From the NCBI RefSeq assembly GCF_037975245.1, contig NC_092580.1, forward strand, positions 26,394,501 to 26,458,500: a stretch of 64,000 bases of DNA, written 5' to 3'. Source of the DNA: Apostichopus japonicus. Lineage: Eukaryota; Echinodermata; Holothuroidea; Aspidochirotida; Stichopodidae. Positions 496 through 34,031 of this stretch are shown here, in pieces (within the stretch, counting starts at the first letter, position 1; every line of letters starts with the position of its first letter). The notes beneath the pieces are model-generated. The model worked only from the letters and a program-made list of their open reading frames with translations, searched no databases and was not told where the DNA came from. A program made the position numbers and the translations under genes.

Positions 496-1891
496 TTCAT
501 CGTATATGTCATCATTTTCAGCAAAATCGCCGGGCCTTCTTGGTACCACATGGACATGGACGTGCTGAGTAGAGAATGGTTTTTAAGAGATCAATGATGC
601 TTTGCCTTAATATCGTTTAACCATTTTGTTTTAAAAGGGTTTCTGGTTTAATAATAGTGCAATCTCAACAGTACTGTTTTATGGTCGTACTTCTTTCAGG
701 GCTGTGGTATTTTTAAAAACCTCTTAGAGATTTTTTTGAAACATTCCTTTGAAATAATAGGGCTCTGACTCTACCAAAAAAAATACGAACCAGTTGCCAC
801 TTCTCAAAGAAAGAGGCACCTGTGCGGCCTAGGAAACTTTAATTTCATCTCTGCTTGAGTCACTTTTACTTTGACGCATATCATGCTATGAAGATGCTAT
901 ATGGTTATTTATACACATGGTTTAAAATATACTATGCACTCTTGGTTTGCATTCATCAATACATAGGAGGACTTGAAGTGAGCCACCCTGTTCAGTAAGG
1001 GTAGCCTTAGGAAATATAGTCATGAAGATTTCATCACATCAACAATTTTTGGGGGGAGGAAATGAAGTGTTGCAATACATTCACACTGGATCACACCACT
1101 TTAGCATGATTAAAACAGTCTACACTTTGAGAGACCTAGCAATGAATGTGTGACACAAGATTCGAGGGTTCGATTCCTACCTTCGCCTGATGAGTCCCAA
1201 AAGGACAAAACCGGTCGTGAAGTGGAATTTTTCTGGTGAGTTTTTCTTTATTTATTTACTATATATCTGTCATACCACTTGCTACACATTCATTTCTTAT
1301 TTACTGCTTGGTTGGATTATGAAGAGTGGTTATTCTGTGCAAATTGTCAGATTCAAAGCACCAGGGGTGCACTACTGTATGTACAATCATAACACTTGGG
1401 TAATATGCCCTCATTGACAGTTATACAAAGCCAATTTATAGGCATTCACACACCAGTAGAATCACTGTGGTCGAGTGGTCCAGACTTTGGTCTGTGACAC
1501 AAGATCCGGGGATTCGATTCCTACCTTCGCCTGATGAGTCCCAGAAGGACGAAACTGGTCGTGAGGTGGAATTTTTCTGGTGTGTTATTCTTCATTTAAT
1601 TACTTTTTATATATATATATATATATATATATAGTCTAACAACCCCACCAACAGAACGGACGCAAAAGAGAATACACCGACAGAACAATACACCAACAAC
1701 CCTATAATCCCCGGTAACCCCGACGAGGATCCTATTTATTCATGGAGCATAACTTGAAGCTACCAGTTGTCTGATGATCGCTAAAACGCGTGAAACTCCG
1801 AGTTACAACTACTAGTATCAACATATATTTTTCGCTCTGTCCACTGGACATAGAGCACTCTGCGCCAAGATAGACGCCAACCAGCCAACTC

Positions 1892-1942
<51 letters not shown>

Positions 1943-1943
1943 G

Positions 1944-2006
<63 letters not shown>

Positions 2007-2023
2007 GTATATATATCTATCTA

Positions 2024-2094
<71 letters not shown>

Positions 2095-5000
2095 ATATAT
2101 ATATAAATATATAGAGTTGGTTGTTTGGCATCTATCTTGGCGCAGAGTGCTCTATGTCCAGTGGACATATCGGAATATATGTTGAGACTAGTTGAGACTA
2201 GTGGAACACTAGTAGTTGTAACTCGGGAGTTTCACACGTTTAGCGATCGTCAGACAACTGATAAAATCGTCAGACAAAGGAACCACACACAAAGGAGCGA
2301 ACACCAAAGAAAGGAAAATAACCCCACCAACAGAATGGACGCAAAAGAGAATACACCAACAGAAGAACAATACACCAACAACCCTATAATCCCCGGTAAA
2401 CCCGACGAGGAGCCTATATATTCATGGAGCATAACTTGAAGCATATAAATATATTAATATATACATATTAAACTCACAATTACCTTTTTGGTCTATCTGC
2501 TGCATTCAAGCTTTTGTTTTCTATAGAAATTGTTTGGCTTACGCAGTTACTTCAGTGTTACGTACTTCAACAGAATCTATAGTTTGTATCCCATGACAAC
2601 ACTGTCAAGAAATCTTTTTGTAAGCAAGCCAGGATCCAGTGAAGGTGTGGGGAAAGAAACCCCTCCCTCTCACTTCTCAACATCAAAATAAAAACAAACA
2701 GAATTAAAAGAATTAATTAGCAAAACCTTGCACGCAGACATAATTTTAATACAGGCTAAATTTGCCTCACAAAGCAACACCAGTCTCATTTTGTTCTGGA
2801 GAGGGGACTCCCCTCCCCCCCCCCCCAAGGAAAAGAACCCTAATTGTGAGTCAGCTATACTATGTCTGGGGCAGACCCTCTGCAATTTAACAACTTCTGG
2901 ACCTGCCTCTTGAAAGAAGTTCATATCCATATCTTTTTTTTTATTCTCTCGATCTTTGGAGTAAAATTTTTCATTGTTCCACAGATAGCTATGGATAAAA
3001 ATCAATGATTGGACATCAGATCTACTAAAACTGCTCGACAACTGAATGCTAAGAACAAGATTTGGTTGAGTTTTCATCAATGTAACAGCTTCCTCTCGAC
3101 ATAGACATACCCTCTACACCTGTTATGACTCAATACTTTCTCTTGAGCATAAACCGTTACCAAACAGCAGACAATGAACCGTCGTCTAGAGATGGGACAT
3201 GGAGAATTTGTAACTATTGGAAATACTTGATATCAACTTCTGGAGACAGTTTATCAATTTTGACTGTTTTTTACTGTGACAGTACTTAACGTATTAAGGT
3301 AATAATAGTATGTCCTCGGTTATTGTGAGTCACCTGAAAAATTATTTCATAGTGTTTAGATAAACAGTTGTTCAGCTGGTAAAAGAATAACAAGTACAAT
3401 CTCATTGTGACAGTAAAGTTGAAGCGTTTAACAAAAGTCACCAATTGTTTAAATCTTCTGTTTCTTCAAAATCTAATGGCACTATTGCAAAACTCTTAAA
3501 TGTACAATACTTCCATGCTGGGTTTAGAGTGGCTCAGCTAATCACATGACTTTCCTTTGATAATAACTATACTAGCAATTAATTCCTCCATAATTATTAA
3601 GGTGGGATGTTTTCATGTATGAATTTACTGATTGGAAGGACCTACATTAAGACTGGATACTTACTTGAACTGTCTGTCCTGCATCAGGTCCGTCCTGGAT
3701 GGCAATAGATAGTGAGGTAGCCTTAAAGTGTCCTTCTAGGTTCTTTGATACACTTTGTGCGGTCTGAAACAAGTCTGCTATTTCATTCTGTGTTAGTCCG
3801 GCAAATCTCTCTACTAGTCTAAGTGGTGAAATTAAGATATCTGCAATTTGTTAACAAATACTGTTAAGGTCAAAATCAGTGGTTTATCCTACCTTAGAAG
3901 TTACATTACAAAACTGTTGCAAAGATTCCAATCAATTTCTTGCATACACAGAGCATAAACAAACTACTACACAAAAATGAACAAGAGACTAATCACTGTT
4001 GACCCAGTTCAAAGCAACTTGGTATGCTAATTGCACAGAAATTTTCTGTTCTTTGGTTTTATTAATGTCGCAAGAGATTCTATGGTTCCATGCTGTTCAA
4101 AAAATCAATTTCCAGACTTTTCAAGACCAAACATGTATTCTTGGTTTTAATATGATGCCTACACATGATGTGAGAGAAATGTTAGGCTACCTATAGTAAG
4201 CCTAACAATTGTAACTCTTGCTAAAATCTATCTCTAAATTGCAAAATTATTGGAAATTCATAGGAAAAAATACATCTTAAACTGCCAGCTCCAGACAAAA
4301 ATGTTCTTTTTGTCAAAGAGAGAAACCATTTCTTAAAAAGTTATGAAAAACAAAACATGCTCAAATGAGGATTTTTCTTCCAATATCCAAACTAAAATTC
4401 AAGGATTTCCAAGACCCAGAAAGGAGGTTTTTCTCAATATCTACTTTTCCTATTTTCCAGACTGCATTGTAAGCATGAGATTCTTCAGCCGTATGAGAGA
4501 CTCTATAACTTTTCAAAGCCAATATAAGTACGCAGAGTAGGCCTAAGATTCTTTCCCATTATAATTACTCACACCTACCCTACCTTACATAAGACATTAT
4601 CACCAAAACTGGCACTTATAAACAGCAGAAAAATGACACCTTGGGTAGTGTGGGGAAGGAGATCTGTGGCTGAATAAAAGAGTGAGGTGCATTGGTTCCA
4701 ATCTACAGTACAAGTAGAGGAAGATCGATGGTTTCAGATTTGACTGAAGGCAATAAAACATAAATTCCTTTATTATTTACACTTTTTTGAAAATATTAAT
4801 GTCACAGAAATGTTGATCAATTTATTCTACTTATGATCACACAAAGCAAGCTAAATGTAAAAATGACATCATCGCAAAATGCTCATAGACAGCAGACACA
4901 TTAAGCTGTTCGTCTAAGTATGGCAGTGTTATTTGATATGAATATGAATATGAATGTAAGAGACTGACTTCGGTCAGCCTGCGGCTTTGATAAGCCAATG

Positions 5001-5300
5001 AGGCTTCTTGTTGAGTTCCTGCTTGTAGGAGGATCAGAAATACATTTGTAAAGTTATCGACCATAAGTTGATGAAACAACTGATCAAATAAAAAAAATTT
5101 ACATGAAAGAAACAAAAGCATTATACATTATGGAAAGACTGCAAGGTAAAGGATACGTCCAGGTACAACTGGCTTTCGATTGACAAAAGCAAATGAGAGC
5201 TTCGACTTGAAGAAGACTGCAGATGATTGGACTATGTGTTGACCAAATCTAAATGTGGCCATGTTTACATCATTGTTGGTAGGTGAAGTCATTTACTGGC
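496..5300 (-). CDS. FHIT: FHIT, bis(5'-adenosyl)-triphosphatase (partial, C-terminus off the left edge)
   Basis: This is a HIT-family dinucleoside polyphosphate hydrolase that splits Ap3A into AMP and ADP in the cytosol. Coding exons on the minus strand are 5262-5157 (ATG at 5262, 35 codons plus one base), 3840-3665 and 564-496. Junction phases agree (1, then 0) and all introns are GT-AG. The exon with the ATG begins at an acceptor near 5301, so 5263-5300 is 5' UTR. The protein reads MATFRFGQH... then [34 protein letters not shown] and [14 protein letters not shown]. These match human FHIT segment by segment, and the catalytic His triad (HVHVHV) is intact at residues 95-100. The family is about 147 residues long. 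Here 117 are present, and the last roughly 30 residues must lie left of position 1. The 3.1-kb intron 565-3664 holds hammerhead-bearing repeats. No upstream non-coding exon was found. Confidence 0.93.
1120..1250 (+). repeat. SINE-like repeat copy 1 with degraded hammerhead
   Basis: The copy shares a block running from TGACACAAGAT through a tRNA B-box-like GGTTCGATTCC to GTGGAATTTTTCTGGTG with the copy at 1440-1590. The shared block includes a hammerhead ribozyme core. The A-box end is poorly conserved. The 3' part runs into A/T-rich sequence. The two copies are 344 bp apart in the same orientation. Confidence 0.6.
1173..1228 (+). ncRNA. Hammerhead ribozyme motif 1 (type I, core mutated)
   Basis: The 5' strand of stem I, ATTCC..CTTCGC, is followed by CTGATGA, stem II GTCC/GGAC, then AAAA where GAAA is required, a minimal stem III (A-U, C-G) and the cleavage base C1216. 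The 3' strand GTGAAG.TGGAAT closes stem I. The G12 to A change at 1207 should abolish self-cleavage. One stem I pair differs from motif 2 (T-A instead of T-G) and pairing is kept. The element is in the FHIT intron, on the opposite strand to the gene. Confidence 0.7.
1440..1634 (+). repeat. SINE-like repeat copy 2 with intact hammerhead, AT-microsatellite tail
   Basis: The head reads TGTGGTCGAGTGGTC... then a GATTCGATTCC B-box-like segment, the hammerhead at 1517-1572, and an AT-rich tail ending in about 13 TA repeats. The layout suggests a tRNA-like SINE head joined to, or overlapping with, a self-cleaving ribozyme. The stem I sequence and the B-box overlap. Confidence 0.6.
1517..1572 (+). 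ncRNA. Hammerhead ribozyme motif 2 (type I, core intact)
   Basis: Stem I is two helices. CTTCGC (1525-1530) pairs with GTGAGG (1561-1566, two G-U wobbles), and ATTCC (1517-1521) pairs with GGAAT (1568-1572), with a small internal loop between. The core CTGATGA is at 1531-1537. Stem II is GTCC/GGAC with loop CAGAA, then GAAA at 1551-1554. Stem III is minimal (A-U, C-G, loop UG). The cleavage nucleotide is C1560, following GGU, which satisfies the NUH rule. Every invariant core base of the hammerhead family is present. Confidence 0.8.
1765..1810 (+). ncRNA. Hammerhead ribozyme motif 3 (Penelope type)
   Basis: Stem I AGTTGT (1765-1770) pairs perfectly with ACAACT (1805-1810). The core is CTGATGA at 1771-1777. 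Stem II is CGC/GCG (3 bp), followed by GAAA at 1792-1795. Stem III is ACTC/GAGT, a short hairpin. The cleavage base is T1804. All invariant residues are present. Confidence 0.8.
1892..2105. repeat. Compound microsatellite (TATATG)n and (CTGT)n
   Basis: Runs of TATATATG-type repeats are followed by about 15 CTGT units and a few CTAT units. The tract sits at the centre of the inverted Penelope-like copies. Confidence 0.95.
2214..2259 (-). ncRNA. Hammerhead ribozyme motif 4 (Penelope type, minus strand)
   Basis: This is the inverted partner of motif 3. Stem I AGTTGT/ACAACT is intact. The core reads CTGACGA, where position 7 is free to vary. Stem II is CGC/GTG with a wobble, then GAAA, with stem III ACTC/GAGT. 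It differs from motif 3 in the core N7 base, the stem II closing pair and the loop lengths, but every pairing is kept. Confidence 0.8.
2445..3664. other. FHIT intron sequence without recognised features
   Basis: Nothing beyond a poly-C run near 2815 is seen. Open frames here are short and on both strands, without coding character. Confidence 0.6.
4937..5040 (+). repeat. SINE 3' tail fragment
   Basis: The segment GACTGACTTCGGTCAG...CTTTGATAAGCCAATGAGGC is shared with the full SINE at 55937-56143 and the fragment at 9066-9125. It ends just before the first FHIT coding exon. Confidence 0.6.
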
Positions 5301-6410
5301 CTGGAAGAAACAATTTAAATTGGTATGAGGGAAACTACACTGGCGAATTTTATTCAGCTCAAAATGTTTAACAACAGATAATTCAATAAAAAATGGAATG
5401 TTAATATGAAAATTGCATTGAGCCCTGTCATTTTTTCTGGGCTTTTAGGGCAGTAAGATGGAAAAGGTCGAAGTTTAAATTTGGCAAACACACATTGAGA
5501 CTATAAGTTGTAAGACAATTATTTTGTGCACAGACTGATTAATGTAAAATGTAAGAACTAAACAGAACTAAGCCATAGGGTTACCCAGAGTACAGATACA
5601 ACTGTCTATAAATCAGCTAATTAAAACCACAATAAGTCTTGGAGCTTAGAGATACTGGCCACAACTTCCTGCTTAATAGAGCCAGGAGATAATCTTCTTT
5701 GTAAACAAAAATTGATTTTTCAATGCATTTCATTTGGAAGTCCTGGATTAGTTCACTACAGCTTGTCCAGTTCTGCGTAAATGTAGGTTCTTGGGCCCTA
5801 CATCATTTTTAAGACATTCAGATTCCACTCAAGAGATTTACCGTAAGAGTTACTAATTGTGAAGCTGGATGAGGGAAGGCAATGAAATGGGTTGGGGGAG
5901 GAAGTAGCCCTGTGTAAATGATCTTTTAAACTTGTTCTCGGTATATAGTAACTTGCAAAAACTCTTCGTACAATACACATAGTGTTCAAAGTTTCTAAAG
6001 GGACATGTGTTGTAAGTCAAAAAACCATAATTTGTTCCTCTCAAGAATTCATACCACATATACATTGTAACATTTTGATGAAAACTGACAATCGTTTTTA
6101 AATGCCTAATGGCTTAATAAGGAGACGGAAGCAAGAACTTGCACATAAAAAGAGGTTTTCAAAGGTGTTGTATTTAAAGCAAAGAAAGTAGACCTACTTA
6201 ATAGGTATAGATTACAAATTCTGAAAGATATTTTTTACAGGCAGACACTAACTTTTAATTGTGATCTATAAGACTTGAAAAACATTGTACTGTAAGAGAG
6301 ATCTAGACATTAAAGAAAGTTTATCTTCAAGTTTCATAATTTCTATTTGATTTTTCATTGCTTCCAGATACATTTAAGCAGTTTCTTATGGTTTATTTCT
6401 GTTTCTTCCA
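5301..6410. other. Upstream of FHIT coding exons, no feature seen
   Basis: No further FHIT exon, no CpG-rich promoter and no repeat with recognisable ends were found here. Confidence 0.5.
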
Positions 6411-17216: not shown

Positions 17217-19095
17217 CAATTACCAGACCTCATCGGTGGTGTTACACACCTGCCAGTATAGTATATGTATTCATCCTTCTATTTTCTAAGACAGTTGCCT
17301 AACAATTCATACTCGCTCATGTCAAGGGATTTATGTATCCGGGGTACTGCGGTAGATTAGTACTCGAATTCTGCACTTGGAGCCGGACACTCTTTTTTCC
17401 CCAAGGCATCCCTCCATATGCTTTCAGGCCCCCAATTGACTCCGGGCCCCAGCGCTGATTACCCTTTGAAATCCTGGGTCATGTGGACAACTTCAAAATT
17501 TAAATTATGCATTTTACAAAATCCATTTCTACTACAGAAAAAAACAACAACATTGTAATAATAAATACAGTAAATAGAACTTCAAGCATATGTGGGTCGA
17601 TGATGCCATTATAGACCTGAACAGGGTAATTTTCTCCCTCACACCCCCTCCAATTTTGGTGAAGATAACAATGTGCTACATTCCATAAATATGACCTGCC
17701 ACCTTGTTTGGTAAAAGAGTAAAAAAAAACATCATATTTGTAATTATTTCCTTTTCTTTTGCAAAGTTGCCCTCTTGCAGTTTCGTTGACCACTTTAAAG
17801 AATTTGTAATTTTCATTTGCAACTCACTGTGCTTATCAAACTGTATATGGGGGAAGGGGAGGAAGGTGGCGAATGACTGACCAGGGCCCGCTTGTGGCAA
17901 AGGTACCCGACCCACAGAAATGTTTAATCTATGCCAAATATTTTGCAGTACGTTTCATCAGGTGACCCGATGAGCTGGTCTGTAGTTCATATAGCCTAGT
18001 GCCCTAGTCTATGGTTGGTATTATTTCCGTCAATGTCACTTACTCTTATCTAGCGTCATACTTTCATTGTGTTACATTTTGTACTTTTCATTCCACTGCC
18101 GAGTATTGCTGACGAAGGTCCCAGTGGGACCGAAAATTCCAATATATTTTCTAAAACAATATACTCCTAATTTGTCAATATGAGTCTGCATATCTTATTT
18201 CTCTGCTTTTGTCTTTTTTTTCTCTGTTTATTCAGCATATTTTCCTTTTAAACAATATAGCATATACATATTGTTATAATTATAATCACCTTTTACAATT
18301 CTTGCATAGAACATGTTTTTTTATGAAATTTCAAGAACGGAACAACTCTGGGCATTCAGAAAATGCATGTTGTAATTGAATATAACTAACTTTATCTTTC
18401 TTACACTTACTTGTTTTTGAATGAATATAACGTTCAACATCAATTGCAAACTGTTTGTAATAGGCATGGCTAAGATTTAACCCGTTTGCTCTTCTTGTTA
18501 ACTAAATTTGTTGAGAAGATAAACGAGTTCCTTTTTTTTGACACTATCATATTTTACCAATGTAATTTGCATATTATGTGTTGCTAATGTCTTTTTTATA
18601 TTTATGTATAATGTCGTACTTTTGAGTTTTGCAAAGTCACTATACCATTGAACACTGACAGTGTCATGTCAGCTGTTCTTCAACGGCTCAAAAATGTAAC
18701 GGTACTTTTGTCCTTTCTTGCGATATTCCTATATTTGTTTCTCTCCAAACGACGTATACATTCACGATTCTATAGGCATCCAAAATGAGAAAGAAAAAAA
18801 TATTTTCGTGTATGATCGTAGACGAAATCAATAGCTTTAATTAAGAATTAGCAGTTATTTAGATGTATACTGGGGGAAAGGGTCAACAGGACCTTGCCGC
18901 TCAAATGTCAACAAGCATTCTCCTGCATGCCACTCATGCCACTCTATATGTGCCCTATCACTGAGAAACTCAATCGTTAATTGTAATAAACCTCAATTTC
19001 TTCAGAAAAGTACTTTTGAATACTGAGGAGTGCGTTTTGAAATCGTTCCAGCAATTTTTAATCTGCTCAAAATTGGAACCAATATTGATGAATAT
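17217..19095. other. Spacer with a single hammerhead motif
   Basis: No coding exons are seen. The only structured item is the hammerhead at 18103-18145. Confidence 0.5.
18103..18145 (+). ncRNA. Hammerhead ribozyme motif 5 (minimal stem III)
   Basis: Stem I GTATTG (18103-18108) pairs with CAATAT (18140-18145, one G-U). The core is CTGACGA at 18109-18115. Stem II is a 6-bp helix GGTCCC/GGGACC with loop AGT, preceded by an extra A. Then GAAA at 18132-18135, a minimal stem III and cleavage base C18139. The CUGANGA, A, stem II, GAAANNUC layout is the one known from Penelope-like elements. Confidence 0.7.
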
Positions 19096-19454: not shown

Positions 19455-19812
19455 ATGGCGTGTCTGTGACGTCATGCTGGTTCGACTCCTGCGTAGTTCA
19501 CTACGTTGTGTCCTTGGGCATGGTATGGCGGTCTGTTATACTCAACTCGTGATCCAAGGATTGCTGGTTCGATTCCTGCCTAGTTCATTACGTTGTGTCC
19601 TCGGGCAAGATGCCCTACCTCAATTGCCTCTCTCCACCCATGGGTTAAATGGGTACCTGTGAGGTATCTTGTCATTGGGCGCAGTATATAACTGCAGCCG
19701 CCTGGAGGGATTGTCTCTGGGACAGGTTATCATTGACCAGGGGTAACATATCATCTGTAAAGCGCTTTGAGACCTATTGCTGGTATAAAGCGCTATATAA
19801 AAGTGGAATATA

Positions 19813-21247: not shown

Positions 21248-21508
21248 ATCGCCAGCTGATCTCGTGATTGTTAACCATAGAAATTGAAGTAGGGCTTACT
21301 TCAATTTCTATTTTGTAAACAAACCTAGTAAGGAATTACTCACCCCTGGACATTGGTAACAAAGCGCCACCACATTGATGAGTGGCTTCAGAACAGGTCG
21401 TATGACATTCGTTCTCCTTACATCAATTTCTATGTTGTAAACAAACCATGCTGTCAGGCAGTATAATTTCCATTACTGTGCAACGTTTTCTGTATTTGTA
21501 TTCCTAAA

Positions 21509-24500
21509 ATGAGCGCTGACATTGGTATCAATACTTACATGATATATTTTGCAATAATTGTGATTTCTTTTGCATGGTTTTGGAAGAGATTACGAAATCA
21601 GAGATATCACTTTGACAAACGAATAATAATATTCTCAAGGTATCCAGAGGCCGGTTTCACGAAAACACGGTTAGTGCCAGAACTGGGCACGGATGGTGCG
21701 GCCGTTGTACAGAAGTTAATGGTCAGTATAGACAAATGTTAGCGTTATTACAATTACTCCAACCATGTTTCTGTAGCATTTTATGGTGTACGTAACTTGG
21801 TGTACTTTAAACTAGCAAATTTTAACCAGCTAATTGTCAAGTGAATCATTGTATCAGCCTAATCGAGCTTCTGCAATGTGTCACCTACACTACAGTAAGC
21901 TAAATGTATTTTAAATAAACGAGAAAAGAGCTGGAAGACTGGATTGTAATGATTTGGACCCAGAAAGCACTCGGAAAGACTCTTTAGTAAAATTGAAGTG
22001 TGGCCTTTTTGAATTTATCTTTCTACGTAGAACCATGAAGTTTTGCAAAGTGTTTCCTAATAAGTACGAACCATGCTATTAGGTGGCCCACATTAGGTTC
22101 ATTTGTAGTAGTTTGTACACGTTGTAAGATAAATTGCTTAAGCAACAGTAGATGACTAGCCTAGATCACTAGCCTAGCCATACGCCATTCAACTGATTGT
22201 AACACAGCACAGGCCTACCACACACTAGTTGTGTGTTGAAAAATAGTGGGTCTTTTATAATTCCATTATGATGCTCTTACAGAGTACTTAGTTGCATACC
22301 TAAAAATGGACAGCTGGTGTGAGATCTATATCAAAGGCTATAGACTTTCATATCTTCTGTCTATGACCACAGTTGTGCATGTATCCTCTGCTGACTCATC
22401 ATCTGCTAAGGCTGTCACCTTGAATAGTGATGATTAACTAGCTAATTTTGTGAGTTTACTTGTTAATTCAAACTGTGTCTTGCTTGGAGACGATGTAAAT
22501 ACTTAATGGTACTGTATTTTAATTCTATTCTTAGACTGATCATATACTACATGAGGTCCAAGCATTTGTGGCCGTCAACCAACACACTGGGGTAGAATTA
22601 CAGTATGATGGTGGATCGGAAGAGAAGGTAACATACTGGTTGGAAAGACAGAAGAATAATTTCCCACAATTCCAATGGACACCTCAAAGCTCTGGTCATC
22701 TTGGTGAAAGGATGAGGGATGCATTTAAGAAAGCATTCGAAGAGGGAGCGAAGACTGTTGTTCTAGTAAGCATGCGTATTATGATAATACTCTTTTCATC
22801 TGGTAATGGTAACCAAGCATGTGTGCCAGTGGCATGAACACGATTGCCCCACTCCACTATGTGCTCGCCACGGGTTTGTGTAATAAACTAACACTTTGTA
22901 TGGCTTCTTATTCTACAAATACTGCAGTTGGACTGTGAGATGAACAGTACTGACATTGCAATTATAAAAGAGAAAGCAATGACGTTCCATTTTTAATTCT
23001 TTCCTTAAATTTGTTTGTGTGTTTGCTCATTTGTGCATGCAGGTATATTGGAGAGGATAGGTGTCGGGTGGAAGGGGGGGGGAGGGTTGGTGCAATTTGG
23101 GGTAATTCCTTTATCATTACATTTCAGTCTACAAGTATTAGATACTTTAAATTTACGTGCAACTTGTTTAGAGATTTCTACCACGTAAATCAGATGATAA
23201 TGTATGGAAAACAAGAACAAGGGCTTCTGTACATTTGATGAGGATGAGTATCTAACAATGCAGGATCATAAAAAATTGGCAGTTTATCACAAATTCCAAA
23301 GCTATTTCTGAAGAAAGATTTGACATCAGATTCCTTCCATCCTTATTTTCAGATTTACAGTACCTCATTTTGTTTTCATATAATTTTTTTTTCAGATTGG
23401 GAGTGACATTCCTGGTATTAATATAGATGTTCTTTCAGAGTCTTTCAAGGTCATAGAATCTAAGTCATGTGATATGATTTTAGGAGCTGCTAATGATGGT
23501 GGATATTACCTGGTTGGGTTTCATCGGGGATGTGATAACAATTTGTGTAAGTAGCACGGTTTTAATCAATCAAAGAAAAACATTTATATCATGTCATAAA
23601 AAAGGTAAATCAACTCTGCGTGTATATTAATAACCTGATAATTTTAACTAAATAACTATATTTTTATGTTGTAGATAGGGCCAGAATTTCCCCATTATAG
23701 CTGCACAGGTGCTTAAATATTCTACAAGATGAAATCAAGTCACTAGTAGCCAAACTAAAAAGAGAAGAACCACCGGCATTTTTCTGCCAGTAGACATTAA
23801 GAACATAAAGAAATGATAACAATCTACAGCCAAAAAATCATTTCAGATTCCAGGACCTGATATATGAGCTCAGAGTATCGCTGCTTATTATTAACAAATA
23901 CTGTAAATTGGGCTGCTCTCATAAGCCAGTACAGAAACTTGTAGATTCCAGATTCCAGTACCTTACATATGAACCCAGTATTGATTCATTCAGAGTCAAT
24001 CACAGCAATTATTGTTCTTTACTTCCTGTGATATCTCTATACCAGAATCATTGTATTGTCCTCGAAAAGTACAGTGAAACACGTGTGAATAACTTGAGTG
24101 TGCACATAACTCATTGGCACTGATAGCGATAGAATAACACCTCACTGCCTTGAGGTCCACAAGTAGAAGGGATGAACCTCTCTTTTCCAGGTCAAAGAAT
24201 TATCCTGTCCCACACAGATGTAGTCTGTCTTTAGATATGGACATACTGTTAGATATCGACATACTGTTAATGCTCTCATAAATCAATAAGATGTACAAAA
24301 GCAACATAAAGAGAAGACAACCCTACATTGGTTTCTTGTTGTGTTAGTAAAGCGTTCAACTGTGCCACCTGTTAGTGAAACATGGGTCGGGACAAGGAAA
24401 GGAAAGGAACGGGTGGTTGGGGGGGGGGGGCTGCTTTGGTGAGTGATTTGTGACTCTTCACAATAAGGTTCTTTTTATCTTCTCAATATAATAGTTCTTT

Positions 24501-27500
24501 TTACATCACTATTCCTCGGACTGCTACAACATGGCTGAGAAGATTTATAAGAAAAAATCATTTGAACTGTTGCAGAGCTTACTGTTGTCAAAGGCTCTTC
24601 ATTTTCTCATCCCTCAGCTAGTGTTTTTGAGGGAATTGAATGGGGTACATCGAAGGTATTCAATCAGCAGCTGTTGGTAGCTCAGAGGCACAAACTTCGA
24701 GTGCATACACTGTGTCAAACACTGCAAGATATAGTAAGTTTCTCCGGTGTCATACTCCACATCATTGTTACGGAAACGACATGTAAATAATTCGTATTCC
24801 GGCAGAAAGAGTTTCCAAGGATGTTAACGCTTAAAAGAAAAGGTGGACGAGGTTTCGAATGGTATTTGAAAAATAATATTTCTATATTCTACAAATAATA
24901 TGAATAATAAAGATGAATGGTACAAATAAGTGAATAACAAAGATACAGTTAACTTAAGGTGCCAAATAGAAAGAAATGACTTATCTATTAAGACTGGGTC
25001 TGAGGGTCCATGAACTCGATGGTGTAGTAGAGCTGGGCCTTTGCGGTGGATACATTTACAGTCTTAATTTTATTGCAGTATTCAAAGGCATTAAAGTCCC
25101 TCTTACAACAAGTTACTTCTTCACACAATGTCTTCTTTCCTTTTGTTTACTTTTTGTAGCTATTTGAAAGAAATGAACTTGTTGATTTTCAGATGATGCT
25201 TGTTATTTAAAGATTTTGAATCAGAATAGGTCGCTGGAAAAAGTCAATTTTGTTATTTTCTCGATAGGATGAACCTGAGGATTTACCAGAATTTGAGAGC
25301 AAGGTTGGCATCAGTCTAGAAGAACTGAAGGCTCCAGTTCTTTCAGCTATAGTACCAACATATAATGAAGAGGGCAGCATACTATCAACCCTGAGCAATC
25401 TGATCACAGTAAGTTGAAAGTATTCTGTCGCTACATATTTCTTGTAGTATTCAAAGAATACCTTCTTTCTTTTTCTTCAATCAGTAGTAAATAATTTAGG
25501 CACCAACTTTATGAAATACTTTAGCAACATGGATGTATCGTGTCTTTAAGTTCAAACAAATCTAGACACTTCCTGTCAGATATATTGGTTAAAAATACGG
25601 CAAGTCTTCTCTATAGATTCCTATGCCGTGACATCATATAATTTGCATGAAGTCACATCCACCCTGCACTCTTATGTTTCCAAGGCGCTCCACCATTTAT
25701 AATACAGAATGTATCACACTGCATCGACTAGTAACACATAGATTTGTTGGACAAATATTTCTTGTTTTTTTTTTCTCAGCATGTGGCAGTAATTTTACTA
25801 GTTGTTACTATAGAAAGAGAGATTTATGACTCTACTCTAGAGCAGTAAACAATTTTCCAGGCTTTTAATCAGGGCAAGATCGGCATTCCACTCTATATGT
25901 GGACATTATGTTCTGAATGAATACATCATTTTCTATATCTAGTCATGTGGCACTAGTTTTGTACAGATATGTGTAAATATAAAGAGCAACAACATGAAGG
26001 AAATATTTTCATGACGACTAACCTAGGTACGTCCGTCACTCTTTATTTGGACATTCTATTCTATTTATGGGGATATTTCTGCACTACTGTGAAGGCAAAG
26101 ATGTTGCGGTCATTAGGCACTCACTGGTCAGTAAAGAAGAGAAGGTCACGTTTTCACTGTATTCTGCACCTTTTCGTTTCCTATTTTGCATATTTTGCTG
26201 TACTCTGGAGGTTAATAATGATATGCCATAGTAAATAGCATATTTATAACAATATGCCATAGTAGATAGCATATTAATAATGATATGCCGTAGTAGATAG
26301 CATATTAATAATGATATGATGTAAGAGATAGCATGTTTATAACGATATGCCATAGTAGATAGCATATAACTAATGATATGCCGTAGTAGATAGCATATTA
26401 ATGATGATATGCCGTAATAGATAGCGTGTTGAGAATTATTCAGACTCTGCCATGTTACTATTAATGCAGCATGTAAGCATCATCACTACCAGCTATAGAT
26501 CATAACAATAATAATAATAAACTATGTGGTATTTTCTTTCTTGTGCAGAGTAGCAGGTTTACTTCCTACATGGAGGTGGTGGTTAGCGATGGAGGCAGCA
26601 GTGATGGTACGAGGCGGAGGGTGGAGGAGTTTGCTAGCTCCTGTACAGCTTGTAAGGTCACTCTAGTCAATTCAAAGAAAGGTGAGTGAAGCAAACATCA
26701 ATTAAAAACAAAATGTGCTGTCAAGTTAAATAATATTACAAACAAGAGTTAATAGCTAATTTGGGAACTTACACATTTTCTTGCATCCCATTAAGTTGCT
26801 ACATGGTCATGTTAGAGACGATGTTACCTTACTTAGCCTCCATAGAGACCATCCAGTCCCTCAACAGTATTTCATATAAATAGCTGTTACTATGGTTATT
26901 CAGTTCAGTTGATAAATATCTGATCCACTTGAAGTAGCCTTTATATCGAAACAATCTGACCTACTTCTTATCAATTAAAATACCTCAAAAGTACATGACA
27001 TTCATTTTTATGATTTCTTTTTTACTTGTTTTTGAGTTTAGGTAGAGGAGTACAGCTCAATACTGGTGCTAAACATTCCACTGGGTCCAATCTCATTTTT
27101 GTTCACGCTGATACAACTCTACCGAGAGCCTTTGATAGTCATGTGATGGTCACACTCACTGAACCTGGGGTTGTTTGCGGAGCATTTGAGTTTGCTTTAG
27201 ACGTCCTGGAGAAGAATCAAGAAGCGGAAGACAAAGAAGAAGAGACCGCTGGAAAGGGAAAGACAAGGTTTAGTACAATTATCTATTATTTTTGTTCAAA
27301 TAATTTGGTAATGAGCTTAAGCTCTTAATTTGGAATTTTTATAGTTACAATCTGGATGGCCATTTCAGATGGGAAAATTTGGGATTTCTCTTGGATGCAA
27401 AATCCACCTTTCTTTGGGCAGCAAGGAATGCAAAAGCTGATGAAGCCTACTATCTGTGACACCAAATTTCAGAGATATCGAAAAAATAAGCATTTACAAA

Positions 27501-30500
27501 GTGATCAAATGAATAATCATACCTTTCTATAAAATGAAACAAGTTTGAGGTCATTCATGTGGGGCTTTCTTCCTTGTTCTTGTTTTCAGAGAAGAATTTT
27601 CAGTGCTATTTAAGTGGCAAATGAAACTTCTTACATGGTTCACTAACAGAAGAGCAAAGAATTATGGTAAATGATATTCAGGTTTAAATTAAAAGTTAAT
27701 TAAACGAGTGGAACAGCATTTTGGATAGTGAAATGGAGAACAGAATGTTAACATTTTTGACAAGACGTATGATTAAATAAGATTTACTGATGTTTTTGTG
27801 GCTCACTTCCTGTATGAAAGTCACCTCCTATAATAATTCTTGATACTGTGAGCAAAAGCTAGTATGTTGTTACATAAATAAATGGGTTAATATTTTGTTA
27901 TTTATTTACGATTGCCTATTTCATATTCAGGGCTTGAAATAACTGACCCTTCTGATGGCAATTTGCCATCTGTGCCCCTAAGTACTTTCATTTCCATCCT
28001 CGCAAAAACACCTGTTACCGACGGCAACAAAGTTTTAACCAAGCTGCTGTCATTATCGTTTCAATCAATAAGTTTCAAATATCAAGCTTAATATTTGTGA
28101 GCCTTCTGGTATTCCATTAAGTAAAGATAGCTTATATATATATTAGTTTTTATACAAATTAAAACATTTTAAAACAAATTGAAACATTTTATACAAATTA
28201 AAACATTTTGAAAGACGAGGCAGTTTTCATCTACATGAAACACTTAACATCTTTCCTTTCTGTTGGTTTTGAAAAAGAGCTGCCGTACGGTGACCAGGGT
28301 TTATTTATGACGAGACGGGTCTTCGACAAGGTTGGTGGATTCCCAGAGTACCGACTGATGGAAGATTATGCGATGGTAAACATATACTTTTTATTCATTT
28401 GTTCTCTTCAAAAGCAGCTGGTTATGTCTGTAATCAAATGCATTCAGCCAACAGGACACATAAAGCGTAGTATATATCATCATTGTGTTGCATTAGGCCA
28501 CAGAGTTTTAATGACTTGAGAGAGTTCACATAGCACAGATCTGCAATATAATACAAGCCGGGCATTATGAGAGGGAGATCAGTTGGGGGGGGGGGAGGAT
28601 CCCTAGAACCCCAGGATCAATCAGAGGGCTGAAGAAATATGATGTGTGCATTAAGAGTTAACAGTGTTTATGACAAATAAAATGAATCAATGTTATGTTT
28701 TTGGCATGAGTAAGGATTGGATCAGGCCAGGGCTTCCGATAGAAGGATAATTTCTTCATACTACCTTGCATGCACCATTAATTCATTAGTCTGAAAAAAG
28801 TGGGCCCAGTGACATGAGTGGCCCCCCCTCTCCCCACCCCCATCTTGTCTCATCTAGCTCTCAATGTAGCCGATCATAGCAGATATAGTTTATAATATAC
28901 AAATAATGAATGGTTATGAGTGCAATAGTGCAAATATTTCATGAGTTGAAAGATTTGCACTACTGCACGAATGGAAACCATTCATTATTTGTTTTATACA
29001 ACATATTATATTAAGATGGGTAAAATGCACTCATGCAACAGATTGTTTTGAACAGACAGGTTTCTCTTCTCTTAAACATTGAAAAGAGTGCTACCAAAAA
29101 AGTATAACCCATGGTTCTGGAATAGAGCGGATTTTGCATGCAATCAACGAGCAATTGACCAATCAAATGACCAGAATACAATTAGATGTTGTATAATAAG
29201 ACCTAACCTAATTTGCATATTCAAATTTGGGCTAACTGATAGATCAGATGGAAATAGGTTTACATGCTATACAGCTGGCTGGTCCAAGTATGTCAAAATG
29301 AATGCAAATTGCTTGAATAAGAGCCATGGATTGACACACACCATCAACATTGCATAGATTCCTTCTGCCTTCGGCAAGGCATCAATAAGGAGAGTGGTTT
29401 TTGTCAAGTGAACTAAAAAATAAAGACTGTAATGCAACTTACCCTTTTCTTTTGGTCTTTTGAAGGTTAAGAATTTGCAATGCCTTGGACACATCAAAAT
29501 CGTGAGTGGAGAGAAGGCTATCACCTCAGCAAGGAGATGGATAAAGCATGGTTTATTAAAGGTATCAGTGCATGCATTAACACATTTTATGCCAGGAATA
29601 TTTGGTTGTGTTGTCCAGAATTTTTAGTTGTCAATATTTGCCCGAATGCATGCCACAAGAGAGGTTAAAACCATTTTCATTCACAGGATTCAAAGTTAGT
29701 TGCTGTTTTACTCCTTTCTTTCAGTTTGAGATTTTTTTGGGGGTGGGAGGGGGAGTCATCAGCTGTTGTACCCTTATTTCATAACCCAAGCATTTTCTAA
29801 TAATGATAACTACAAAGGTTTTCACTTCTCTTGAATTCTGAAACTAAACATGCAAGAGGACGTTATCAAATAGTATTATGTTAAATGATATTTTACATTT
29901 CACTTTTGTTGTATTTGCTACTGTTCAAGGTAAGGAAACTACCAGATGAATGCTGGAATATTCTCAAACCACAGCACACACTGTATAAGATGAAAGCTGG
30001 AATATTCTCTAACCACAGCACACACTGTAAAAGATGAAAGCTGGAATATTCTCAATCTGTAGCACACACTGTATAAGATGAAAGCTGGAATATTCTCTAA
30101 CCACAGCACACACTGTATAAGATGAAAGCTGGAATATTCTCAATCTGTAGCACACACTGTATAAGATGAATGCTGGAATATTCTCAAACCACAGCACACA
30201 CTGTATAAGATGAAAGCTGGAATATTCTCTAACCACAGCACACACTGTATAAGATGAAAGCTGGAATATTCTCAATCTGTAGCACACACTGTATAAGATG
30301 AATGCTGGAATATTCTCAAACCACAGCACACACTGTATAAGATGAAAGCTGGAATATTCTCTAACCACAGCACACACTGTATAAGATGAATGCTGGAATA
30401 TTCTCAATCTGTAGCACACACTGTATAAGATGAATGCTGGAATATTCTCTAACCACAGCACACACTGTATAAGATGAAAGCTGGAATATTCTCAATCTGT

Positions 30501-33500
30501 AGCACACACTGTATAAGATGAATGCTGGAATATTCTCAAACCACAGCACACACTGTATAAGATGAATGCTGGAATATTCTCTAACCACAGCACACACTGT
30601 ATAAGATGAAAGCTGGAATATTCTCAAACCACAGCACACACTGTATAAGATGAATGCTGGAATATTCTCAAACCACAGCACACACTGTATAAGATGAAAG
30701 CTGGAATATTCTCTAACCACAGCACACACTGTATAAGATGAATGCTGGAATATTCTCAAACCACAGCACACACTGTATAAGATGAATGCTGGAATATTCT
30801 CAAACCACAGCACACACTGTATAAGATGAATGCTGGCATATTCTCTAACCACAGCACACACTGTATAAGATGAATGCTGGAATATTCTCTAACCACAGCA
30901 CACACTGTATAAGATGAATGCTGGAATATTCTCAAACCACAGCACACACTGTATAAGATGAAAGCTGGAATATTCTCAAACCACAGCACACACTGTATAA
31001 GATGAATGCTGGAATATTCTCAATCTGTAGCACACACTGTATAAGATGAATGCTGGAATATTCTCTAACCACAGCACACACTGTATAAGATGAATGCTGG
31101 AATATTCTCTAACCACAGCACACACTGTATAAGATGAATGCTGGAATATTCTCAAACCACAGCACACACTGTATAAGATGAATGCTGGAATATTCTCTAA
31201 CCACAGCACACACTGTATAAGATGAAAGCTGGAATATTCTCAAACCACAGCACACACTGTATAAGATGAATGCTGGAATATTCTCAAACCACAGCACACA
31301 CTGTATAAGATGAATGCTGGAATATTCTCTAACCACAGCACACACTGTATAAGATGAAAGCTGGAATATTCTCAAACCACAGCACACACTGTATAAGATG
31401 AATGCTGGAATATTCTCAAACCACAGCACACACTGTATAAGATGAATGCTGGAATATTCTCTAACCACAGCACACACTGTATAAGATGAAAGCTGGAATA
31501 TTCTCAAACCACAGCACACACTGTATAAGATGAATGCTGGAATATTCTCAATCTGTAGCACACACTGTATAAGATGAATGCTGGAATATTCTCTAACCAC
31601 AGCACACACTGTATAAGATGAATGCTGGAATATTCTCTAACCACAGCACACACTGTATAAGATGAAAGCTGGAATATTCTCAAACCACAGCACACACTGT
31701 ATAAGATGAATGCTGGAATATTCTCTAACCACAGCACACACTGTATAAGATGAATGCTGGAATATTCTCAAACCACAGCACACACTGTATAAGATGAATG
31801 CTGGAATATTCTCTAACCACAGCACACACTGTATAAGATGAAAGCTGGAATATTCTCAAACCACAGCACACACTGTATAAGATGAATGTTGGAATATTCT
31901 CAATCTGTAGCACACACTGTATAAGATGAATGCTGGAATATTCTCTAACCACAGCACACACTGTATAAGATGAATGCTGGAATATTCTCTAACCACAGCA
32001 CACACTGTATAAGATGAAAGCTGGAATATTCTCAAACCACAGCACACACTGTATAAGATGAATGCTGGAATATTCTCAATCTGTAGCACACACTGTATAA
32101 GATGAATGCTGGAATATTCTCAATCTGTAGCACACACTGTATAAGATGAAAGCTGGAATATTCTCAAACCACAGCACACACTGTATAAGATGAAAGCTGG
32201 AATATTCTCAAACCACAGCACACACTGTATAAGATGAATGCTGGAATATTCTCAATCTGTAGCACACACTGTATAAGATGAATGCTGGAATATTCTCAAA
32301 CCACAGCACACACTGTATAAGATGAAAGCTGGAATATTCTCAATCTGTAGCACACACTGTATAAGATGAATGCTGGAATATTCTCAATCTGTAGCACACA
32401 CTGTATAAGATGAATGCTGGAATATTCTCAATCTGTAGCACACACTGTATAAGATGAATGCTGGAATATTCTCAATCTGTAGCACACACTGTATAAGATG
32501 AATGCTGGCATATTCTCAATCTGTAGCACACACTGTATAAGATGAATGCTGGAATATTCTCAATCTGTAGCACACACTGTATAAGATGAATGCTGGAATA
32601 TTCTCTAACCACAGCACACACTGTATAAGATCAATGCTGGAATATTCTCAATCTGTAGCACACACTGTATAAGATGAATGCTGGAATATTCTCAATCTGT
32701 AGCACACACTGTATAAGATGAATGCTGGAATATTCTCAAACCACAGCACACACTGTATAAGATGAAAGCTGGAATATTCTCAAACCACAGCACACACTGT
32801 ATAAGATGAATGCTGGAATATTCTCAATCTGTAGCACACACTGTATAAGATGAATGCTGGAATATTCTCAATCTGTAGCACACACTGTATAAGATGAATG
32901 CTGGAATATTCTCTAACCACAGCACACACTGTATAAGATGAATGCTGGAATATTCTCAATCTGTAGCACACACTGTATAAGATGAATGCTGGAATATTCT
33001 CAAACCACAGCACACACTGTATAAGATGAATGCTGGAATATTCTCAATCTGTAGCACACACTGTATAAGATGAATGCTGGAATATTCTCATTCCATTACC
33101 GGTTCTAGTTTACTCTGTCTTACAGATTACCGGCCCTATTTTACTCTATATTACAGATTACTGGTTATATTTTACTCTATCTTACATATTACTGGTTCTA
33201 TTTTACTCTATCTTAAATATTACTGGTTCTATTTTACTCTATCTTACAGCTTCACAGGTTTTAGTTTACTCTTTCTTACAAAATACCAGTTCTATTTTAC
33301 TCTGTCTTCCATATTTCTGGTTCTATTTTACTCTATCTTAAATATTACTGGTTCTATTTTACTCTATCTTACAGCTTCACAGGCTTTAGTTTACTCTTTC
33401 TTACAAAATACCAGTTCTATTTTACTCTGTCTTCCATATTTCTGGTTCTATTTTACTCTATCTTAAATATTACTGGTTCTATTTTACTCTATCTTACAGC

Positions 33501-34031
33501 TTCACGGGTTTTAGTTTACTCTTTCTTACAAAATACCAGTTCTATTTTACTCTATCTTACATATTACTGGTTCTATTTTACTCTATCTTAAATATTACTG
33601 GTTCTATTTTACTCTATCTTACAGCTTCACAGGCTTTAGTTTACTCTTTCTTACAAAATACCAGTTCTATTTTACTCTATCTTACATATTACTGGTTCTA
33701 TTTTACTCTATCTTACATATTACTGGTTCTATTTTACTCTATCTTACAGCTTCACAGGCTTTAGTTTACTCTTTCTTACAAAATACCAGTTCTATTTTAC
33801 TGTCTTCCATATTAAATAGTACTGGTTCTATTTTACTCTATCTTACAGCTTCACAGGCTTTAGTTTACTCTTTCTTACAAAATACCAGTTCTATTTTACT
33901 CTGTCTTCCATATTTCTGGTTCTATTTTACTATTCTTACAGATTACTGGTTTCAACAGACTGATGGTTATCCTTTACAATCTTGGAGTTTCACCAGAGAC
34001 TTTATCAAAATGGTATTATGGATTTAATTGA
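21509..34031 (+). CDS. Membrane-anchored DUF2064 (CofC-like) / family-2 glycosyltransferase fusion
   Basis: Eleven exons are 21509-21721, 22535-22765, 23396-23546, 24618-24733, 25268-25408, 26549-26681, 27042-27267, 27590-27666, 28278-28375, 29466-29561 and 33942-34031. All phases agree and give 523 residues. Residues 10-28 form a membrane anchor. Residues 38-240 match DUF2064 (TIGR04282): IIIFSRYPEAGFTKTRL (39-55), SDIPG (151-155), GAANDGGYYLVG (178-189) and FEGIEW. Residues 260-523 match the TIGR04283 glycosyltransferase 2 family: VPTYNEEGS (266-274), SDGGSSDGT (297-305), FVHAD (348-352), LPYGDQGLF, LMEDYAM (456-462), TSARRW and the C-terminal NLGVSPETLSKWYYG. In bacteria both families occur near radical-SAM/selenodomain or arsenosugar genes. 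The substrate in animals is not known to me. The donor of exon 7 (GTTTAG) is weak but required by phase. AATAAA at 34140-34145 may be the polyadenylation signal. Confidence 0.9.
26216..26433. repeat. About 31-bp tandem repeat in glycosyltransferase intron 5
   Basis: About seven units built on GATATGCCRTAGTAGATAGC with an ATATTAATAAT spacer. The overlapping minus-strand frame is an artefact of the repeat. Confidence 0.85.
29945..33095. repeat. 44-bp minisatellite, about 71 copies, in the last glycosyltransferase intron
   Basis: The unit starts GATGAATGCTGGAATATTCT and ends GCACACACTGTATAA. Units differ at two positions. One is AATGCT or AAAGCT. The other is an 8-10 bp block with three states (CAAACCACAG, CTAACCACAG, CAATCTGTAG). 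Identity outside these blocks is near 100%. Runs such as the 132-bp trimer near 31141-31400 show higher-order repeats. Because 44 is not a multiple of three, one unit is read in all three frames, giving a 44-residue peptide period on the minus strand. These frames are not genes. Confidence 0.95.
33096..33941. repeat. Pyrimidine-rich tandem repeat carrying acceptor-like motifs
   Basis: The basic unit of about 31-33 bp contains TTCTATTTTACTCTATCTTA. A higher-order unit of 125 bp includes one TTACAG. TTACAG ends at 33125, 33156, 33249, 33374, 33499, 33624, 33749, 33848 and 33941. The spacing is 125 bp from 33249 to 33749. The last of these is the acceptor of exon 11 of the glycosyltransferase gene. 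The exon begins ATTACTGG, the same bases that follow the copy at 33156. Confidence 0.92.

Follow-up and report, generated by a model that had tools for sequence, protein, structure and literature searches.

A hammerhead retrozyme with a tRNA-like head in Apostichopus japonicus and a probable Penelope-type footprint of its insertions

A 64,000-nucleotide stretch of the genome of the sea cucumber Apostichopus japonicus (contig NC_092580.1, positions 26,394,501 to 26,458,500 of the forward strand; this whole stretch is called the window and is numbered from its first letter) contains a hammerhead ribozyme that shares bases with a tRNA-type promoter box. The locus raises the question of what kind of element carries both and which enzyme inserted it. 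Our answer, held as probable, is that the window contains one 1.34-unit insertion of a non-long-terminal-repeat (non-LTR) retrozyme of about 340 bp, whose RNA was copied by a Penelope-like reverse transcriptase/endonuclease starting internally at about +50 or +78 to +87 from the hammerhead cut.

A tRNA-like head and a hammerhead in one repeated unit

The ribozyme, copy B (1516..1573, plus strand), was read directly from the sequence as a type I hammerhead with an intact core, CTGATGA at 1531-1537, GAAA at 1551-1554, and GTC at 1558-1560, and a predicted cut after C1560; the original prediction had named the same complete core and the same cut. Stem II (1538-1541/1547-1550) has 4 bp and a CAGAA loop. 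Stem I consists of two 6-bp halves, 1525-1530/1561-1566 and 1516-1521/1568-1573, around a UAC/U internal loop; the two-part architecture proposed earlier was thus retained, and its count of 11 bp was replaced by 12 pairs, including one terminal G.U. Upstream lies a tRNA-like head, with an A box (TGGTCGAGTGG, 1468..1478, plus strand) starting 43 nt before a B box (GATTCGATTCC, 1511..1521, plus strand) that has one mismatch to GGTTCGANTCC. The two boxes stand at tRNA spacing, and with the patterns used this 1468/1511 pair was the only one in the window at a distance of 35-70 nt; ARAGORN reported no tRNA in the window. Positions 1516-1521 of the B box also form the 5' strand of distal stem I, as had been predicted, and this 26-nt B-box/hammerhead junction had 235 exact matches (130 + 105) in the 671.6-Mb genome (35 contigs), with none (0 + 0) for the reversed control pattern. 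At the end of stem I stands TTTTT (1572..1576, plus strand), which resembles an RNA polymerase III (Pol III) terminator.

A partial unit, copy A (1149..1266, plus strand; B box at 1167-1177, hammerhead at 1172-1229), lies 344 bp upstream of copy B and is 89% identical to it over 118 nt, with 13 differences and no gap; the original prediction had overlooked it. Its core has A instead of G12 at 1207, and its stem III strand is the palindrome ACCGGT. The G12A change makes hammerheads 10^5- to 10^6-fold slower, according to the accessible part of PMC2553840, and copy A would be expected to be nearly inactive. A pattern of core plus stem II with up to three mismatches matched twice in the window and never in 100 dinucleotide shuffles. 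The covariance check suggested with the original prediction had a divided outcome: no Rfam family reached its gathering score in the window, but by E-value over the 64 kb both copies matched Hammerhead_HH9 (RF02275; gathering score, 52), copy A with 37.1 bits (E 9.1e-6) and copy B with 30.4 bits (E 0.0013). HH9 is an isolated conserved motif in amniotes. It was the best-matching model of its clan, the UACC stretch of stem I included; unlike the copies here, it has a closed stem III, and the matches stay below its gathering score. A model built from A and B recovered only these two in the window, the next best hit having an E of 0.93.

Homology to A and B was found genome-wide, and so was homology to the roughly 195 nt between them (1267..1461, plus strand), which are a repeated spacer and not unique DNA. 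The spacer query (1262-1461) gave 964 first-look candidates, of which 40 were scored and yielded 44 matches at 84-100% identity; the head-plus-hammerhead query (1462-1590) gave 933, and 40 scored candidates yielded 43 matches. Head, hammerhead, and spacer were contiguous in most loci fetched. In stretches of 2-3 kb, 95 of 96 loci (4 overlapping loci left out) held 128 hammerheads, with 68 loci holding one, 22 two, 4 three, and 1 four; L067 has three in a row. Since 16 of 25 same-strand hammerhead spacings, the A-B spacing included, fell at 327-344 bp (the others were 145-301, 365, and 713 bp), the repeating unit is about 340 bp, and one full 344-nt unit, from cleavage site to cleavage site, occupies 1217..1560 (plus strand). 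GC content was 0.40-0.42 in 15 of 16 complete tandem units and 0.27 in the other. To judge by its sequence, the family is a metazoan non-LTR retrozyme with a tRNA-like head, present dispersed or in short tandems and in at least hundreds of copies. An earlier view of A and B as two independent short interspersed elements (SINEs), drawn from local alignments with no homology upstream of A or downstream of B, was overturned by the genome loci. As a separate observation, four pairs of junction matches with a spacing of exactly 205 bp lie in about 0.65 Mb of contig C9 (34.93-35.58 Mb), a region that includes loci L156 and L157 and is perhaps a local segmental duplication.

The boxes and the core were present in most copies (near-duplicate loci are included in the counts on 99 and on 104 copies). 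Among 99 full copies, with 33 partial ones set aside, the core was intact in 85, the A box was kept in 83, the B box (GGTTCRANTCC) in 82, a T-run of four or more in 87, and the palindrome in 71; all five features occurred together in 40. Of the 104 copies that span at least 90 of the 116 nt of head and hammerhead, 100 were scored and 87 had an intact core, and T5 followed stem I in 79 of 95. A set of 60 loci, from 60-odd of 100 listed junction places, contained 66 instances, 59 of them unique; the strict core pattern fitted 40 of these and did not fit 19, and the 40 included 38 with G12 and 30 with ACCGGT. Conservation of the stem I pairing among genome copies, set beforehand as a test, was borne out: in 49 copies, 95.1% of 774 stem I and stem II cells were paired, vs 37-51% when the partner strand was slid. 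Divergence from the family majority had a median of 3.5% (7.8% for copy B), and at least one copy equals the majority exactly over head and hammerhead; together these values imply that the family was mobile fairly recently.

That these are old, inactive, satellite-like repeats, in which boxes and core persist by shared descent only and without function, we consider hardly credible. Such a history would agree with the missing G12 of copy A and the weaker stem III of copy B, with the joint presence of all five features in only 40 of 99 copies, and with the lack of covariation: in the 49 copies no pair had changed on both sides and shuffles reached the observed values, so covariation neither supports nor refutes the fold. 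It does not agree with dispersal on many contigs, with the defined 3' ends described below, or with the exact-majority copy and low median divergence, which point to mobility.

Between GAA and the cut, copy B reads A-C-U-G-G-U (ACTGGT, 1554..1559, plus strand, self-complementary and suited to a dimeric hammerhead) and copy A reads A-C-C-G-G-U; ACCGGT was found in 79 of 101 copies. Neither strand can by itself close a normal stem III. Because this stem is normally the self-complementary ACCGGU, two hammerheads, arranged in tandem or acting in trans, are probably required for cutting; cleavage as dimers is described for newt and other type I hammerheads with a weak stem III in the accessible parts of PMC6155905, PMC7229834, and PMC3088659. 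Fold prediction gave the double hammerhead, joined by a 6-bp stem III, as the optimum for A:A (-40.3 kcal/mol); for A:B it had -37.7 vs -44.8 kcal/mol for an alternative pairing. As read from the two sequences, copy A would combine the better stem III with a dead core, and copy B a live core with the weaker stem III.

Insertion ends and the reaction of Penelope-like elements

With u1 defined as the first base after the cleavage site (1217), copies A and B mark the opposite ends of a single insertion of 462 nt, or 1.34 units (1149..1610, plus strand), which runs from u277 at the left to u50 at the right and is followed by AT-rich DNA, with (TA)13 at 1608..1633 (plus strand) adjoining the u50 end. 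This right end recurs at other loci. For 104 scored segments, each of at least 100 nt and with 4 near-duplicate loci dropped by match coordinates, the 3' ends fell into two zones: 51 at u41-60 (37 of them at u50) and 31 at u71-95 (modes at u78 and u87), with 1 at u61-70 and 21 elsewhere. When only the longest segment of each junction-chosen locus was counted, 46 of 56 ends lay in the two zones (p 2e-31 vs a uniform unit), and the junction pattern leaves the 3' end free. Among loci chosen by the 1462-1590 query, which disfavours ends before u30, 27 of 28 did so, the window included. Left ends were spread over the unit with a mild excess at u226-240, a distribution distorted by the choice of loci. 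A single Pol III start was rejected as the source of the 5' ends, the excess being mild and the units tandem.

The main segments ran through the cut site in 85 of 92 cases (50 of 56 junction-chosen, 28 of 28 chosen by the 1462-1590 query, and 7 of 8 spacer-chosen). (TA)5 or longer was present in the 3' flank of 65 of 93 insertions and in the 5' flank of 31, vs 9 of 273 background windows. Target duplications of at least 8 bp were found in 4 of 93 insertions, with boundaries that are approximate, vs a shuffled mean of 3.6 and a maximum of 6. Inverted pairs were head-to-head in 23 cases and tail-to-tail in none, and in 13 of the 23 both outer ends lay in u41-95 (p 1e-5 for the partner end).

These features were compared with those of the Anolis Poseidon protein, a Penelope-like element (PLE) protein that in vitro starts reverse transcription within its RNA at two adjacent sites, mostly 111-118 bp into the open reading frame (PMC11167929). 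The hammerhead cut of that RNA lies 26 bp into the frame (PMC11167929), so that by subtraction the start is at +85 to +92 of the cut; the second site, if on the near side, would be at about +45 to +62. Between the two start sites lies a 30- to 40-bp tail called unique to PLEs; cleavage favours AT-rich DNA, with both strands cut and extended; and hammerhead mutants insert equally well, implying that uncut RNA is the main template (PMC11167929). The retrozyme resembles Poseidon in that one of its 3' end peaks is as far from the cut as a Poseidon start, in having end sites at +50 and +78/+87, 28-37 nt apart, where Poseidon has two starts about 35 bp apart, in its AT-rich targets and tandem copies, and in what would be extension of both strands and an uncut hammerhead in the template. 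Because the ends at +50 and +78/+87, the (TA)n targets, the head-to-head pairs with two starts, and the passage through the cut site all match Poseidon, a PLE enzyme is the favoured one. Two internal 3' end sites 30-40 bp apart downstream of the cut, an AT-rich target, and extension of both strands together make up what would be a PLE-type footprint, and the insertions agree with it, apart from the 21 of 104 ends that fall elsewhere.

In the mechanism that we propose, long RNAs of one or several units, either uncut or circularised (or re-joined across the hammerhead site), would be captured in trans by a PLE protein, which would begin copying a fixed number of nucleotides from the hammerhead and could use either strand at a break in AT-rich DNA. 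Early release of the enzyme would give 5' truncation, circling or running along a multimer would give tandems, and copying from both strands would give head-to-head pairs. As described for other retrozymes, the hammerhead, active mainly as a dimer, may cut multimers down to monomers that then circularise. The unit could at most be a passenger of a PLE, since about 340 bp is too short for a reverse transcriptase, and its hammerhead differs from the minimal ones of PLEs in having, like canonical type I motifs, a stem I internal loop and a stem II loop.

Probable PLE sequences also adjoin the insertion. Fragments of PLE pseudo-long terminal repeats (pLTRs) lie head-to-head at 1638..2442, with minimal hammerheads near 1765-1810 (plus strand; located at 1771) and 2214-2259 (minus strand; located at 2253), and their 3' ends meet (TA)n at 1891 and at 2114, +87 from the predicted cuts. 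The 3' portion of the fragment is covered by seven instances, of which two lie in the window and two others, L114 and L115, are likely duplicates. These end at +78 to +87 after their own predicted cut and adjoin AT-rich DNA, with (TA)5 in 4 of 7; in L111 and in one piece of L129 the match stops at +12. Loci L156 and L162 have the same pLTR pieces on the flanks of a frame that resembles a decayed reverse transcriptase.

Two further observations concern this class of sequence. A minimal hammerhead of the PLE kind occurs at 18103-18145 (plus strand), with CTGACGA, a 6-bp stem II, GAAAATTC, and stem I GTATTG/CAATAT, and related pieces occur in L071, L096, and L148, where retrozymes are 166-696 bp away. 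Adjoining the frame in L162, at 2404-6347 of that locus (minus strand), is an insertion like a long interspersed element (LINE), with a 926-aa frame that matches RVT_1 and Exo_endo_phos, followed by poly-A.

A LINE might instead have mobilised the retrozyme by way of circular RNA, with the fixed 3' ends reflecting LINE recognition of an AT-rich tail; we regard this as unlikely. In its favour, the accessible text of PMC7229834 describes circular RNAs of metazoan retrozymes and names LINEs beside PLEs as candidate mobilisers, and Nematostella repeats have 15-bp duplications according to the part of PMC4918200 that was available. The retrozyme insertions, however, have no target duplications above chance, and the PLE reaction as published agrees with two peaks separated by 28-37 nt and with head-to-head pairs that have a 3' start at each end. 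The same available text of PMC7229834 calls PLEs a strong candidate for the mobiliser of animal retrozymes because both have type I hammerheads.

Several points weigh against copying by a PLE enzyme or against the fold on which the cut site depends. Part of the u50 peak may come from alignments merging into (TA)n, because u50 sits in the TATATAT of the element. The 21 right ends outside the zones form a fifth of the 104, only 4 of 8 spacer-chosen loci ended inside the zones and the other 4 outside, and one outer end lay outside u41-95 in 10 of 23 head-to-head pairs. All loci entered the sample through similarity to copy B, the exact junction, or the spacer, and represent part of several hundred copies. 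On the side of Poseidon, the text of PMC11167929 does not tell which of the two sites, near or far, is the one at 111-118 bp, and the AC-rich start site of that element is loosely matched here, 1267-1303 having an A+C content of 0.51 and no strong hairpin. As for the PLE sequences, pLTR ends beyond +87 could not show in the matches because the PLE query stops at +87, and the frame in L156 and L162, which we take to encode a PLE protein from motifs seen by eye (YRDD, GIY-YIG-like, and Cys motifs) and from these only, had no match in Pfam or the Protein Data Bank (PDB). Finally, apart from the lack of covariation mentioned above, the B:B double hammerhead was predicted at -34.4 vs -51.3 kcal/mol for another pairing, and copy B alone at -15.1 kcal/mol as a hammerhead vs -21.4 for its best fold.

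The T-run and possible Pol III transcription

The position of the T-run bears on transcription. It is the only run of four or more T's in 8 of 16 complete tandem units, and at least 83 of 104 segments have their 3' end downstream of it, implying that most of the retrotransposed RNAs were not simple Pol III transcripts. A Pol III start at the head should stop at the T-run; therefore Pol III could not easily make the inserted template. In two loci, L097 and L161, the insertion begins at about u226/u237, shortly before the A box, and stops precisely at TTTT.

The original prediction had called the unit SINE-like. The tRNA-type head stood up to the genome survey, but the SINE part did not, because the spacer belongs to the repeat, units occur in tandem, duplications are at chance level, and the T-run lies upstream of the 3' ends. 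We therefore judge it improbable that the element is a tRNA-derived SINE of 150-190 bp, transcribed by Pol III, mobilised by a LINE, and carrying the hammerhead as its central domain. A SINE of this kind would explain the A and B boxes at tRNA spacing, the mere 118 bp of repeat common to A and B, and the (TA)n, as a 3' tail. It could also account for the 9 of 77 left ends (one duplicate locus included) at u226-240, a stretch 12-26 nt before the A box that would hold 3.4 ends under an even spread, for the extent of L097 and L161, and, through the LINE-like 926-aa frame with its endonuclease and reverse transcriptase domains in L162, for a source of enzyme. The 340-bp unit with its spacer and tandem arrangement largely refutes it, and the chance-level target duplications and the extension of most segments past the T-run count further against it. 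Moreover, 13 of 23 head-to-head pairs have a 3' start at each outer end, an outcome that twin priming by a LINE should not give.

Returning to the retrozyme copied by a PLE enzyme, a role for the head may be suggested, although we hold it to be doubtful. Each unit could be a complete Pol III gene for its own hammerhead, with A box, B box/stem I, core, palindromic stem III, and T5. The resulting hammerhead RNAs of about 120 nt, unable to cut by themselves, would pair through ACCGGU with the hammerheads of long multi-unit transcripts and cut these in trans. Pol III output would thereby be linked to how much RNA stays uncut as PLE template and how much becomes cut monomers able to circularise. 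L161 and L097 could be reverse copies of such RNAs.

Relatives, other features of the window, and significance

The original prediction had regarded the pairing of a hammerhead with a SINE-type head as unusual. This view is contradicted by the Sm-alpha and Sj-alpha repeats of Schistosoma, for which a tRNA-like sequence with a hammerhead, called SINE-like, is described in the accessible parts of PMC2770079, PMC5993326, and PMC4918200. By published descriptions these repeats share with the A. japonicus family a type I hammerhead, a tRNA-like sequence, a high copy number, and the unit length, given as 335 bp for Sm-alpha in the available text of PMC8490949; the retrozyme described here differs in having stem III as a bare palindrome. 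Since the fusion is known in this schistosome repeat of about 335 bp, it is not a new kind. The non-LTR retrozymes of coral, mussel, and axolotl are similar in their type I hammerhead, tandem units of about 170-400 nt, and GC content below 50%, as far as the accessible part of PMC7229834 describes them. In contrast to those, most copies seen here keep A and B boxes, whereas the portions available of a 2020 review describe retrozymes as seemingly without an internal tRNA-type promoter, and the long target duplications that are optional in published cases are not above chance here.

Relatives were also sought elsewhere. Scans of viral contigs returned a phage tRNA array (L001) and the unrelated L002; six viral contigs (L003-L008) matched the core pattern in other contexts. 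Two exact unit patterns had no match in viral contigs, and BLAST against phages had none. A loose B-box/CTGATGAG pattern had 53 matches in genome contigs; GAAA was within reach in 4 of the 53, and none was a hammerhead by eye.

The window contains several features unrelated to the retrozyme. Two exact B boxes at 19479-19489 and 19566-19576 (plus strand), 87 bp apart, are followed by a similar body, TAGTTCA.TACGTTGTGTCC..GGGCA; they are probably two tRNA-derived SINE copies of another family, which we take to resemble MetaSINEs. A 44-bp satellite of about 71 copies at 29944-33090 is directly followed by a 31/125-bp satellite at 33095-33951. Exon-like frames at about 21467-28519 (plus strand), one matching DUF2064 and one weakly matching Glycos_transf_2 below the cut-off, perhaps belong to one glycosyltransferase-type gene.

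As far as the searched literature goes, three features of the family are new: the B box doubling as stem I, the Pol III-like cassette whose stem III is a palindrome, and, for a retrozyme, insertions with a PLE-type footprint. Neither an overlap of B box and stem I nor PLE-type ends of retrozymes were described in that literature, which left most subscription papers outside it. A role for PLEs in mobilising the retrozymes of animals had been proposed earlier as likely. In this one genome, about a hundred sampled copies match the internal start of a PLE protein in both distance and form, and they belong to a family that has a tRNA-type promoter sequence and whose palindromic stem III would be expected to promote cleavage by dimers.
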